A stretch of 64,000 nucleotides of DNA from Clostridiales bacterium (GTDB lineage: Bacteria; Bacillota; Clostridia; Christensenellales; Aristaeellaceae): NCBI GenBank assembly GCA_015056365.1, contig SVGM01000009.1:62001-126000 (forward strand), read 5' to 3'. The position numbers were made by a program, and so were the translations under genes. The notes under the pieces were generated by a model. That model was not told the origin of the DNA. It saw nothing but the letters and a program-made list of their open reading frames with translations, and ran no database searches. Of this stretch, positions 8,284 to 48,595 are shown in pieces. Within the stretch, counting starts at the first letter, position 1, and every line of letters begins with the position of its first letter.

Positions 8284-9754
8284 CCCTGAGGATGGTGACG
8301 ATGGGCTGTGCCAGAATGCCCATCAGCAGGTTCAGCGCCACAAAGCCGCACATGGCGACGGTTGCGGTAGCGCCGTGGTTGGCAGGCTCATAGAGCCGTC
8401 CCTCCTGGGGAACCCTATAGAGGGTAATGACCGTTTTCATGAAATAAAGCACGTTCAGCAGCGTGCTGATGACCAGTGCCAGCAGCAGCACCCACATATG
8501 CACACCGCCATAGGCAAAGGCCGCTTCGCTGAAGTACAGCTTGCTGACAAAGCCGCCCAGCACCGGTATGCCCACCAGGCTCATGGCGCTGATGCTGAAG
8601 CATACGCCCGCCACGGGGTTTCGCTTGCCCGCGCCCCGCAGGTCGGAGAAGCGCTTGCTGCCCTGGGAAGCATCCGCCAGCGCAGAAGAGGAGATAAACA
8701 GGGAACTTTTGGCGGCAGAGTGCACCATCAGGTGGTACAGCGCGGCCACCAGACCCGCGTCAATGCCCAGGCCCATGCCTGCAAAGAGGTATCCGATTTG
8801 CGCAACGGAGCTGTACGCCACCATACGGCGCAGGTCATGGCTGTGCATGGCGCTCAGGCTGCCCATCACCATGGCGATGACGCCAAAGCCGAACAAGAGA
8901 TCGTTCAGGTGCAGGCCGCGCACCACATCCATGCCCACCATGCGCACAAAGATCTTGAGCAGCAGCAGGATGTAGGCCTTGCTGACGATGCTGCTCAGCA
9001 CCGCCGAAGCAGAGGGCGTGGAGTAGCCGTAGGCGTCCGCCAGCCAGGTATGGAACGGGAACAGGGCGCTCTTGATACCCAGACCCACAAAGAACAGACC
9101 GATGGTCACCGTTAGCGGCGTACGGTACTGCCCGGATGCATACAGTGCGGTGATGGCCTCGCGGATATTTTCCATCAGCAGATGTCCGGTCAGGGTGTAG
9201 GTAAGCATAATGGCGATCAGCACCATGCCCGATCCCAGCAGGCTCATGATCATATAGCGCATGGCGGATACCATGGTACGCCCGTTCTGGCGGGACATGA
9301 TCAAGGCGCAGGAGCCCAGCGTCATGATCTCGATAAACACATAGCCGGTGAACAGGTCGTTGGTGTAGAGCATGGACAGGGTCGCCGCCAGCATCAGATC
9401 CAGCATGGTACAGACGATGTTCTGCTTCTTGCCGTCCACCTGCTCGCCCATTTTGCGCATGCCACCTAACGCGCTGAGCAGCAACACCACGCTCATCATC
9501 ACGGCCAGCAGCGCCTCCAGCGGGCCCGCTCTGAGCTCGTTGCCCCAGGGCGCTTCAAAATGTCCCATCAGATAGTGGTAACTCTCCCCTGCGCTGACCA
9601 GATGGGCCAGCAGGAAGGCGTTCATCACCGCCACCGCCAGCGACAGCATCACTGTCAGCCGCCGGGCGATCTTGCCGGGGAGCATGGCCGAAGAGATGCC
9701 GCACACCATGCACAGCATGATAGAGAAGAACGGCACATTACGTACAAACGGCAT
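8261..9754 (-). CDS. Proton-conducting membrane transporter (MrpD-like)
   Basis: GLGIKSALFPFHTWLADAYGYSTPSASAVLSSIVSKAYI signature; overlaps next gene by 23 nt. Confidence 0.9.
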   Translation of the reverse strand: MPFVRNVPFFSIMLCMVCGISSAMLPGKIARRLTVMLSLAVAVMNAFLLAHLVSAGESYHYLMGHFEAPWGNELRAGPLEALLAVMMSVVLLLSALGGMRKMGEQVDGKKQNIVCTMLDLMLAATLSMLYTNDLFTGYVFIEIMTLGSCALIMSRQNGRTMVSAMRYMIMSLLGSGMVLIAIMLTYTLTGHLLMENIREAITALYASGQYRTPLTVTIGLFFVGLGIKSALFPFHTWLADAYGYSTPSASAVLSSIVSKAYILLLLKIFVRMVGMDVVRGLHLNDLLFGFGVIAMVMGSLSAMHSHDLRRMVAYSSVAQIGYLFAGMGLGIDAGLVAALYHLMVHSAAKSSLFISSSALADASQGSKRFSDLRGAGKRNPVAGVCFSISAMSLVGIPVLGGFVSKLYFSEAAFAYGGVHMWVLLLALVISTLLNVLYFMKTVITLYRVPQEGRLYEPANHGATATVAMCGFVALNLLMGILAQPIVTILRDGLGLFV

Positions 9755-10134
9755 TATTCGTCCTCTCCCTTCATCAGCAGGGTAATGCGGTCAATATCCA
9801 GCGTGTGGTAGCGGCGGTACAGGCGAATGGTCAGCGACAGCATCAGCGCCGTCACACTGACGGATACCACGATGCCCGTAAGCACCAGACCGCTGGGCAC
9901 GGGGTTGATGTAGGTCTGCATGACGTCCACGCCGCCCTGGGAAATGGGGGCGGTGCGGCCGGTCACATAGCCAACGGAAGTGAACATCAAATAAATCGCC
10001 GTATCCATGATGTTCAGGCCGATGATTTTCTTGATCAGGTTGCGGTTGAGCAAAAGGGTGGTAAAACCAACGCCAAAGAGCAGCACCGCCACCACTTCCT
10101 CCAGATGGCTGGACAAAAGCTCTCTCATGCTCAC
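9754..10134 (-). CDS. Na+/H+ antiporter subunit C (MnhC/NuoK-like)
   Basis: LIKKIIGLNIMDTAIYLMF...PVPSGLVLTGIVVSVSVTALMLSL. Confidence 0.9.
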   Translation of the reverse strand: MSMRELLSSHLEEVVAVLLFGVGFTTLLLNRNLIKKIIGLNIMDTAIYLMFTSVGYVTGRTAPISQGGVDVMQTYINPVPSGLVLTGIVVSVSVTALMLSLTIRLYRRYHTLDIDRITLLMKGEDE

Positions 10135-11147
10135 ATCCCTCCCTTGCGGAACAGCGTGTAGAACGCGTACATGGTACAGGCCACGATCAGACCCACGCAG
10201 ATATTCAGCGGCAAAATCAGGCCGGAGGACAAAATCGCGCCGGGTGTGCCCAGAGAAATGCCGCTGTTGAGATGATTGGCGCCCATGAAGAAGGAATAGC
10301 TCTTCAGGCCCGCGTAGGTCATCAGCGAAAGGAACGTGACCCAGCGGAAGGTCTTGTAGGTGAAGAAGCGGCCGGTCTTTTCAAAGCCAAAGGCGTTCAG
10401 GTAGAGAATCAGGCCGGCGCCCATCACCGCGCCACCGCTGAAGCCACCGCCCGGGCCCAGGTGTCCGCCCAGGACGATATAGATACCATAGAGCAGGATC
10501 ACCGGCACCAGAATGCGCGCCGCCATCTGCAAAATCGCGTCATTCTTGGGCTCATGATGGCGATCGTCATACTCCGCTTCCAGCATGGACAGGGAGGGCG
10601 CGTCCGGGGTGTGCTCGCCCAGCTTGAGCAAAAGAAGCACGCTGCACGCCGCCACAAACAGCACCGTGCTCTCGCCGAAGGTGTCAAAGGCACGGTAGTC
10701 CAGGATCATGCCGGTGACCATATTCACCGAGCCGGTCTCTGCAACACCTTTTTCGATGTAACGCTGGCTGACTTCGTTGTTGGTGGGGTTGTTCTCCGCA
10801 CCCAGGGGCGGCAGCGCCAGCACGGTGGTCATCAGGAAGGTGATGATCGCCACGCAGAACAGCAGACTCAACACCCGGTAGCCGATCTCCAGCCAACGAA
10901 GACCCTGCCGGCCCGACCAGGCATGCAGCATGCCCAGCTGCAGCCGCTCCTCCAGATACAGCCGCTCCCGGCGTTCGTCCAGTTGCGCCTCATGCATGGC
11001 GTAGTCAAAGGGATCGCTCTCCCGCTTTTCGTCTTCGGACTCGTCCCCAACCGCTTGACAAAGCTGTTTGTCCAGCGGATTGTCCCAGGATACCTGATCC
11101 AGCTCCCGGAGCTTTTGCCAGAAGGATGCGCCGTTATTTTTCTTCAT
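10131..11147 (-). CDS. MbhE-like domain fused to Na+/H+ antiporter subunit B (MnhB)
   Basis: N-terminal TGSVNMVTGMILDYRAFDTFGESTVLF then MnhB motif YIVLGGHLGPGGGFSGGAV. Confidence 0.85.
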   Translation of the reverse strand: MKKNNGASFWQKLRELDQVSWDNPLDKQLCQAVGDESEDEKRESDPFDYAMHEAQLDERRERLYLEERLQLGMLHAWSGRQGLRWLEIGYRVLSLLFCVAIITFLMTTVLALPPLGAENNPTNNEVSQRYIEKGVAETGSVNMVTGMILDYRAFDTFGESTVLFVAACSVLLLLKLGEHTPDAPSLSMLEAEYDDRHHEPKNDAILQMAARILVPVILLYGIYIVLGGHLGPGGGFSGGAVMGAGLILYLNAFGFEKTGRFFTYKTFRWVTFLSLMTYAGLKSYSFFMGANHLNSGISLGTPGAILSSGLILPLNICVGLIVACTMYAFYTLFRKGGM

Positions 11148-15752: not shown

Positions 15753-16175
15753 ATGAACCTTACCTATACCAACACCATTGCCCCTGAAGATTTTATGCGC
15801 CTTCGCAACATCGTGGGCTGGACGCCCATCGCCATGGAACAGGTGGAGAACGGCCTGCAGCACACGGCTCATCTCGTCTGTGTCAAGGACGGCGATCAGG
15901 TGGTTGCCATGGCCCGCATCCTTTGGGACGGCGGCTATCAGGCGCAGCTGGCGGACGTGATGGTTCTGCCTGCCTATCAGCGGCAGGGCATCGGCAAGGA
16001 AATGGTCACCCGGTTGATAAACTGGCTTCAGTCCCAACTCAAACCCGGCTGGCGCATCAAGCTCAGCCTGAGTGCCGCCGAAGGAAAGGAACCCTTCTAC
16101 GAAAAGCTGAACTTCCGCCGCCGCCCCTACGAAGGCACCGGCTGCGGCATGGACCAATGGCTCGGCAGGGAGTGA
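15753..16175 (+). CDS. GNAT family N-acetyltransferase
   Basis: LADVMVLPAYQRQGIGKEMV acetyl-CoA binding motif; AAGGAGGG SD before ATG 15753. Confidence 0.9.
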   Translation: MNLTYTNTIAPEDFMRLRNIVGWTPIAMEQVENGLQHTAHLVCVKDGDQVVAMARILWDGGYQAQLADVMVLPAYQRQGIGKEMVTRLINWLQSQLKPGWRIKLSLSAAEGKEPFYEKLNFRRRPYEGTGCGMDQWLGRE

Positions 16176-16291
16176 CCCCCTGCACCCCCGGACTGCGCCC
16201 TGGCAGGGGGGTGACCCCCTGCACCCCCGGACTGCGCCCTGGCAGGGGGTGACCCCCTGCACCCCCGAACTGCGCCCTGGCAGGGCGCAGG
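16172..16291. repeat. 38/39-bp tandem repeat (about 3 units) with tri-loop hairpins; member of dispersed element family
   Basis: GTGACCCCCTGCACCCCCGGACTGCGCCCTGGCAGGGG at 16172, 16211 and 16249; GCAGGGGG-TGA-CCCCCTGC and CTGCGCCCT-GGC-AGGGCGCAG. Confidence 0.9.
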
Positions 16292-16325
16292 GCTTGGCGT
16301 TAAGTATATTCCGTTGACTGAAGAT

Positions 16326-16361
16326 ACCGCCGTGACGCAACGGGCGTCACGGCTCGCTTGG
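16326..16361. repeat. Dispersed 36-bp stem-loop repeat, copy 1
   Basis: ACCGCCGTGACGCAACGGGCGTCACGGCTCGCTTGG; matches 23098-23133 except for compensating and loop bases. Confidence 0.9.
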
Positions 16362-16448
16362 ATCGAATGGGGTTATCCGGGTATGGACTTTGTCGTAACG
16401 CGGCGGATGAGTATGGGTTTGTCTAGAGATGTTCGTGTTTTATTGAAG

Positions 16449-22985: not shown

Positions 22986-23305
22986 GGCAGGGGTTCCACC
23001 CCTGCACCCCGCAAGGGGCTGAGCCCCTTGACCCGCTCTTTGCGCCCATTTCATGGGCGCAAGGGGTGGCTATAATTTGTTTCAGGACTGCTCTCAGACC
23101 GCCGTGACACGACGGGTGTCACGGCTCGCTTGGGTGATGTGATTCTTTCGGTAGCAACCTACATATCGCCGCTAAATTGCCCAAGTTACTTTCAAATCTG
23201 TATCCCCCATCGCCACACCCTTGTCCGCATGAAATGCGGACAATATCAGGATTCTTAAGGAACGAAGTTCCTTAAGCGGAGGGCGTGGGAGGCAGAGCCT
23301 CCCAC
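22986..23305. repeat. Composite intergenic element: seven perfect hairpins, six with 3-nt loops
   Basis: GCAGGGGT-TCC-ACCCCTGC; CAAGGGGC-TGA-GCCCCTTG; TTGCGCCCAT-TTC-ATGGGCGCAA; CCGTGACAC-GACGG-GTGTCACGG; TTGTCCGCAT-GAA-ATGCGGACAA; CTTAAGGAAC-GAA-GTTCCTTAAG; GTGGGAGGC-AGA-GCCTCCCAC. Confidence 0.9.
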
Positions 23306-32405: not shown

Positions 32406-32443
32406 AGTGTGGGCCTCCTTTTGTTTCTCAAATGCGTTTTGTT

Positions 32444-32523
32444 CCCCTTGCGCCCATGAAATGGGTGCAATAGTGGGATTCCAAAGGGCCTCAGACCCTT
32501 TGGCAGGGTGCAGGGGCAGTGCC
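32444..32523 (-). repeat. Dispersed tri-loop hairpin element, inverted copy between nitroreductase and MBL genes
   Basis: Minus strand: GCAGGGGC-ACT-GCCCCTGC, CAAAGGGTC-TGA-GGCCCTTTG, TTGCACCCAT-TTC-ATGGGCGCAA; aligns with 22986-23070. Confidence 0.88.
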
Positions 32524-32541
32524 CCTGCCTCCGTCCCCTCG

Positions 32542-48301: not shown

Positions 48302-48595
48302 ACGGAACCTAACCAGAACAGCATCTGCAAAGCGCGGCCATGCCGCAGGAACAGGGGTGAGAGTCCCCGACAGTGACGCTGCTGTGTAGAGCGATGTCCG
48401 ACCCCCGCGCGAAAGCGCAGCCATTGGGCTTCGGCCTGAGAAGGCGGGCAAGGGCGCCTGAGCTCCAAGTCAGAATACGGCTTTGCAGATGGGCACAGAA
48501 TACGCCTTCGATCCAAGGGCGGTGTTGCCGTGTGCAGCGCCTTTTTGGCATGCACAGGTACGCCGTACGGCCTTTCGCTGTGCGGCGTTTGTGCG
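48302..48595 (+). promoter_or_regulatory. Cobalamin riboswitch and expression platform
   Basis: GGAACAGGGGTGAGAGTCCCCGACAG..., GCAGCCATTGGG..CTGAGAAGGCGGGCAAGGGCGCCTGAGCTCCAAGTCAGAATACGG; terminator-like ACGCCG...CGGCGTTTGT. Confidence 0.88.

Follow-up and report, generated by a model that had tools for sequence, protein, structure and literature searches.

Background

BOX elements of Streptococcus pneumoniae are modular intergenic repeats that form stable stem-loops and vary in their number of modules. The closest described systems to the locus studied here are the REP elements, which are GTAG- and CGTC-tagged, lie behind open reading frames and can supply a stop codon (PMC3733652), and the REPINs, which are inverted doublets that also form tandem clusters (PMC3116915). 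The REPs of the REPtron Sm system are perfect palindromes with 3-nt loops (PMC8266576).

The window, that is the whole stretch of DNA that was analysed, comprises 64,000 nucleotides from a Clostridiales bacterium. The original prediction placed seven perfect inverted repeats within about 320 bp between pyrH and a MATE gene and offered several readings: a modular, non-autonomous hairpin element, a structured RNA, or a target of a TnpA/RAYT single-strand DNA transposase. Our analysis indicates that the array is probably a full-length copy of a new family of REP-like miniature mobile DNA with a composite palindromic structure, its mobility being deduced from the distribution of the copies. This reading is based on a repeat that is multi-copy, modular and oriented, is patchy at one orthologous site, lies mostly behind stop codons and has swapped its stems with pairing kept. 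Genomes are labelled G000 for the source genome and by other low G numbers for its congeners; many are draft assemblies. Statistics for the source genome come from 687 kb of its sequence plus whole-genome searches.

Layout of the array

All seven inverted repeats were present between pyrH and the MATE gene with the predicted stems and loops. The predicted stem lengths of 8-10 bp hold overall, with the correction that the fourth hairpin (GCCGTGACAC-GACGG-GTGTCACGGC) has a stem of 10 bp and not 9 bp. The window contains 33 perfect hairpins (stem of at least 8 bp, loop of 3-8 nt), whereas five Markov shuffles gave 3-11; the 320-bp pyrH-MATE spacer accounts for seven of the 33. The seven hairpins are real and their excess is far above chance.

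The pyrH gene (amino acid kinase family, PF00696; 22261-22974, plus strand) is followed, 12 bp past its stop codon, by hairpin A (GCAGGGGT-TCC-ACCCCTGC; 22987-23005, plus). The linker ACCCCG (23006-23011, plus), which is conserved in the repeat family, joins it to hairpin B (CAAGGGGC-TGA-GCCCCTTG; 23012-23030, plus). The linker between B and C, ACCCGCTCT (23031-23039, plus), could pair with GGGGTGG 3' of hairpin C and so lengthen the C stem. Hairpin C (TTGCGCCCAT-TTC-ATGGGCGCAA; 23040-23062, plus) is the last hairpin of arm 1 (A-B-C; 22987-23062, plus), which is matched by model R2 at 22987-23070 with 89.6 bits. The C-to-D linker (23063-23096, plus) has in relatives a conserved GTTT...CTGC...(A/C)A motif and leads to the core hairpin D, GACCGCC-[GTGACAC-GACGG-GTGTCAC]-GGCTCGCTTG (23097-23132, plus), whose flanks are constant and whose stem sequence is freely swapped among copies. 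Arm 2 is inverted (C'-B'-A'; 23221-23305, minus; R2 match 23213-23304, minus, 64.7 bits) and consists of hairpins C' (TTGTCCGCAT-GAA-ATGCGGACAA; 23221-23243, minus), B' (CTTAAGGAAC-GAA-GTTCCTTAAG; 23254-23276, minus) and A' (GTGGGAGGC-AGA-GCCTCCCAC; 23285-23305, minus), the last of which lies 25 bp upstream of the start codon of the MATE family transporter gene (PF01554; 23331-24767, plus). In G008 and G005 an additional long-looped helix is possible 3' of D, in the region corresponding to window positions 23131-23190; the G008 version pairs TTGGGTGAT with ATCACCCAA, and the window copy is partly decayed.

Hairpins 1, 2 and 3 match hairpins 7, 6 and 5, read on the opposite strand, in loop and linker type; the array is therefore symmetric, its two arms enclosing a core. 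The arms are inverted in architecture and linkers but have different stem sequences. This A-B-C / D / C'-B'-A' symmetry had been missed by the original prediction, as had the conserved linkers and two further copies in the window, at 16.2 kb and 32.4 kb. The first of these (16203-16372, plus; R1 match 16260-16372, 52.2 bits) holds tandem B hairpins, a C hairpin and a D of sequence ACCGCC-GTGACGC-AACGG-GCGTCAC-GGCTCGCTTG. The second is a single A-B-C arm (32440-32528, minus; R2, 76.8 bits) located 13 bp past the 3' end of a nitroreductase-family gene. The window also carries a cobalamin riboswitch (48313-48499, plus strand, 59.9 bits).

An oriented arm and its core

The arm unit consists of three triloop hairpins in the fixed order A-ACCCCG-B-ACCCGC/AATCCCGC-C. 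Loops were surveyed in 55 arms from several genomes, with orientation assigned from the C-rich linkers alone. The A loop was mostly GCT, TCT or TCC, the B loop mostly TGA, AGT, AAT or TTC, and the C loop mostly TTC, TTT or TGC; the A-B linker was of the CCCG type in 48 of the 55 arms, and the B-C linker was of the type ACCCGC or AATCCCGC. Under this linker-set orientation, loops were hardly ever found as their reverse complements, which indicates that the loops are read on one strand. Within the 687 kb, triloop or tetraloop hairpins lay next to one another in 40 chains, compared with 1 in one shuffle, and intergenic stems of at least 8 bp with a loop length of 3 numbered 65 against 1.8 expected. 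Another 51 intergenic stems had a loop length of 1, a class that includes triloops with pairable end bases, such as TGA.

Full copies are built of two inverted arms around a core that can carry hairpin D in the source genus. The core pattern GACCGCC-N-GGCTCGCTTG occurs in 64 copies in G014, 38 in G010, 15 in G007 and 9 in G012, while G000 and G008 each have a single exact copy; the reversed control pattern gave none. D is confined to part of the source genus, and a C-plus-D model returned just two weak matches in other genera, one of which overlaps an arm lacking D. In G014, D is often tandem-doubled (L111, L112, L113, L118, L120 and others), the units repeating every 70 nt or so and sharing a CTTCTTGTTTGTTGGATGG-type linker. 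A separate repeat, CACCTCATC...CAGCTTCCCCTCAAGGGGAAGC, often adjoins D in G014 and G010 (L106-L145) and also sits in the pyrH-MATE spacer of G010.

Copy number and distribution

A BLAST search with the array found 43 places in its own genome, and the covariance model of the arm (R2) found at least 92 arms there. R2 copies are present in at least 15 of 17 congeners, in at least 77 of 200 genomes of the family and in at least 25 of the 50 genera sampled from it. Elsewhere in the class copies are very rare: at least 4 of 290 genomes have them, one of these a dozen. The searches with hairpins and covariance model that had been suggested thus show the array to be multi-copy in its genome and conserved and covarying in relatives. 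A segment unique to this locus, with neither copies nor conservation or covariation, is the opposite of what we observed, and the idea of a modular, non-autonomous hairpin element is borne out by these copies and by the empty sites in relatives described below.

The dozen arms of G365, a genome from another family of the class, lie at L342 and sibling loci, one of them directly 3' of a T-box leader; horizontal spread is a possible explanation. The D pattern was also scanned against 85,462 genomes. Among the matches listed, repeated occurrences stem from a few gut Clostridia assemblies. Single matches are scattered over Proteobacteria, Actinobacteria and other groups, and by our own estimate chance alone would give about as many for 19 fixed bases and a variable gap when this number of genomes is scanned. 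Phages and plasmids contained no match to the family. Rfam yielded no relevant match, at the gathering threshold over the window and relatives or at a permissive threshold over the array, and no description of the repeat family was found in open-access papers.

The pyrH-MATE site in related genomes

Examination of the orthologous spacers revealed empty sites in some relatives. The two-armed element is present between pyrH and the MATE gene in G000, G008, G005, G009 and G006 (without D in G006), variants occupy the site in G014 and G012, and G010 has a different insert. Only short spacers occur at this site in G011, G004, G016, G003, G002 and G013; of these species, G004, G011, G002 and G013 carry the family elsewhere in the genome, whereas no arm was found in G003 or G016. 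In a tree of the pyrH and MATE proteins the filled state appears in three separate clades amid empty lineages, which indicates repeated gain or loss at one site. The flanks of the empty spacers are too diverged to fix base-exact ends or a target-site duplication.

Comparison of the filled sites revealed wholesale changes of stem sequence. The sister species G008 and G005 have unrelated D stems between the same flanks at the same site, and hairpin 6 reads GGAAC/GTTCC in three species, where two non-sister species have GGGGC/GCCCC instead. Despite such changes, 277 of the 278 pairs in the six arm hairpins of five orthologous spacers are Watson-Crick. This wholesale change with pairing kept points to DNA hairpins that are replaced or corrected as units.

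Position relative to genes

On the outer side of 32 of the 62 strong arms in the source-genome sample a gene lies within 60 bp; in 24 of these cases the arm faces its 3' end, with arm-to-stop distances of typically 2-40 bp. Three of the 62 fall inside called genes. These statistics rest on a simple codon-usage gene caller that missed, for example, a short acetyltransferase ORF before position 16175 of the window. The remaining 8 of the 32 adjoin gene starts and arms also occur within an apparent dap operon, both of which count against a pure 3'-end role.

Over all loci, 26 TGA loops of perfect hairpins were in the reading frame of an open stretch of 100 codons or more, compared with 12 and 10 in the other two frames. 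From this in-frame excess it follows that some of these loops are themselves stop codons. One such case is the acetyltransferase ORF that ends at 16175, its stop TGA lying within the loop of GCAGGGAG-TGA-CCCCCTGC.

Arms also coincide with changes in genome structure. One spacer of G000 holds a tandem array of inverted arms (L041:9796-10652) with a period of 137 bp and units that are 96-99% alike, interrupted by an N gap; this array is a recent local amplification. Gene order between G000 and G008 is broken at arm-bearing spacers (L041, G000 C16:40000-59999: 975-1227 and 9641-10666; G008 C56 and C6). At L041 the two species share an 8.4-kb block, whereas the segment next to it has been inverted and moved, and G008 lacks the tandem arm array seen in G000. 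Another dispersed repeat, about 115 bp long (L041:18291-18415), occurs many times in G008; some of these copies are near contig starts, and the repeat may break assemblies.

DNA hairpin or RNA structure

Of the explanations that compete with a mobile DNA element, the one that fares best holds that the arrays form a structured 3'-UTR RNA or terminator family, whose hairpins act in the transcript by ending transcription or shielding mRNA ends. We consider it unlikely. The strong preference of arms for gene 3' ends favours it, as do the T-run that often follows hairpin C in G014 and G010 and an RNA folding of the array far above that of shuffles (z -7.7). However, DNA folding of the array is equally exceptional (z -8.1), and excess stability alone is consequently uninformative as to which molecule acts. 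An intrinsic terminator should combine a GC-rich hairpin with a T-run. Some relatives' copies have both, whereas the pyrH copy offers only hairpin C with the weak tail CTATAATTTG behind it; the original observation that T-tracts are lacking is accordingly correct for this copy apart from that tail past hairpin 3. The arms that precede gene starts or sit in an operon also argue against a role at transcript ends.

Mismatch types provide a further means of differentiating the two molecules, because selection on an RNA should leave more G-U pairs than A-C mismatches on the transcribed strand. Model matches comprising 192 non-overlapping arms contained 105 G-U and 124 A-C (p 0.23). The priors of Infernal lean slightly to G-U, which makes the missing G-U excess a conservative result. 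Hairpin D was assessed with 35 distinct inserts that were picked by their flanks alone and not by pairing; 89% of their stem cells were Watson-Crick, compared with 48% when the arms were shuffled, and they contained one A-C and zero G-U. Unbiased evidence for pairing thus comes from the orthologous spacers, the flank-chosen D inserts and the mismatch types in model matches. The covariation count of alignment A3 was not used as proof, since A3 was built from hairpins required to pair. Without wobble bias or an Rfam match, the structured RNA of the original prediction is disfavoured, and stem turnover with perfect pairing, no G-U excess and strand-kept loops fit DNA hairpins better than a selected RNA.

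Search for a mobilising enzyme

A second competing explanation treats the arrays as non-autonomous relatives of IS200/IS605 or of RAYT-mobilised REPINs, whose Y1 tyrosine transposase has since been lost from many genomes; it is a special case of the REP-like mobile DNA reading with a named mobiliser, and we judge it improbable. The form of the hairpins speaks for it, since the REPs of the Stenotrophomonas REPtron Sm are likewise perfect palindromes of 8 bp with 3-nt loops (PMC8266576) and inverted doublets occur as in REPINs (PMC3116915); the strand-specific loops point the same way. The evidence on the enzyme and its tag does not. On the arm strand, GTAG was found beside 1 of 55 arms and CGTC beside 0 of 55, while GACG, which is CGTC on the other strand, was near 13 of the 55 when counted anywhere nearby. 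No PF01797 (Y1) match was found in G007, G008, G009, G010 or G012, all of them arm-bearing congeners, an absence that is soft because many genomes are draft assemblies. Across 200 family genomes, 27 had both Y1 and arms against about 30 expected (odds ratio 0.79, p 0.46). The source genome does have an ORF for an IS200-like Y1 transposase of 129 aa (L009:1440-1860, G000 C12), with no arm in 1.4 kb of flank on either side. The suggestion of a TnpA/RAYT target is therefore not supported as it was put: Y1 genes were not found in several copy-rich genomes, and across the 200 family genomes they showed no association with arms.

At the loci checked, no gene between inverted arms was transposase-like. 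Genes between widely spaced inverted arms were considered as autonomous elements and rejected, two loci of the source genome holding housekeeping or unrelated genes that we take, from their translations by eye, to be a dap operon and a neighbour of pgi. No mobilising enzyme was identified, the obvious candidate Y1/RAYT not being associated with arms; some other single-strand enzyme is a possible mobiliser. The genomes compared gave no direct sign of a transposition event, nor of a target-site duplication or a circular intermediate.

Discussion

Under the REP-like mobile DNA reading, the arrays would be small non-coding DNA that is dispersed through the genome and retained mainly just 3' of genes. 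Copying would occur in trans, by an enzyme that may recognise the hairpin loops and linkers on one strand and whose substrate would probably be single-stranded DNA. Hairpins might be swapped as whole units through inter-copy recombination or replication template switching, and a role at transcript ends as terminator or stabiliser, as suggested by the copies with hairpin C and a T-run, would be secondary. A bolder version, which we put forward only tentatively, is a RAYT-independent class of mobile DNA whose code would be a strand-specific triloop and a CCCG-type linker on any perfect stem. Such DNA would be moved by a single-strand-DNA enzyme; its stems would be exchangeable as cassettes of one hairpin each, leaving structure, loops and linkers as the only inherited features.

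A classical MITE that depends on a DDE transposase and has the A-B-C arms as its terminal inverted repeats would account for the symmetric ends around a core, the total size of about 165-320 bp and the empty sites. We find this quite improbable: the two ends agree in linkers and not in stem sequence, which is not the pattern of a terminal repeat bound by a transposase, arms often occur singly or in tandem, a target-site duplication could not be defined, and no element with such ends around a transposase was present in the stretches read. A mutational by-product, in which replication template switching makes and perfects intergenic palindromes of no mobility or function, scarcely merits credence, for although switching can create and repair perfect stems (PMC8794818), and strand-symmetric mismatches and the joint change of both hairpin arms agree with it, it leaves unexplained the shared linkers, the fixed A-B-C order, the one-orientation, type-specific loops, the constant D flanks and the family-wide recurrence; template switching is insufficient as a full account and probably helps to keep stems perfect.

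If mobile as we propose, these elements bring a large family of uncultured gut Clostridia into the range of REP-like miniature mobile DNA; their architecture is new and they have no known mobiliser, which raises the question of which enzyme spreads hairpins without RAYTs. Because loops, linkers and pairing outlast the turnover of the stems, the repeat family can serve as a natural test of what keeps hairpins perfect, the candidates being selection on DNA hairpins, gene conversion and template switching. Its copies also mark places where genomes have been rearranged, and they change the 3' ends of genes, in some cases by providing the stop codon, which is relevant to the annotation of such genomes.

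Among known systems, BOX elements share modularity with the family and differ in modules and host, a likeness drawn by description only. The hairpins resemble those maintained by template switching in having perfect stems whose two arms change together (PMC8794818), although template switching is a mutational mechanism rather than a repeat family and comes without shared linkers or oriented loops. Compared with MITEs such as ERIC and IRU (reviewed in PMC10969869), the elements are likewise small, non-coding, dispersed and intergenic with inverted ends, while these ends match in architecture and linkers and not in sequence. The likeness to REP elements (Di Nocera et al. 2013, PMC3733652) is more extensive: short intergenic palindromes at high copy (at least 92 arms in the source genome, 3 of 62 overlapping called genes) lie beside ORF 3' ends (24 of 32 near-gene arms), often as inverted pairs, with the stop codon sometimes supplied by the repeat. 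Unlike REPs, the arms join three distinct hairpins through CCCG-type linkers in an order that does not vary, their stem sequences are not conserved, and they have no RAYT link. A repeat-flanked RAYT is expected of REPINs; Y1 genes were not found in the five congeners and were not associated with arms over the 200 genomes, and the source genome's own Y1 gene had no arms in the flanks read. Since two defining features of these systems, the tag and the RAYT partner, were looked for and not found with the arms, membership in REP/REPIN is not claimed. The general plan is nevertheless that of REPINs and BIMEs (PMC3116915), namely two inverted ends and a spacer, occurring as singlets, doublets and tandem clusters with compensatory changes, and the inverted doublet is exemplified in the window at 22987 (plus) and 23213 (minus). 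What distinguishes the present family from REPINs and BIMEs is that each of its ends consists of three hairpins spanning about 85 bp and that the core may hold the conserved hairpin D.
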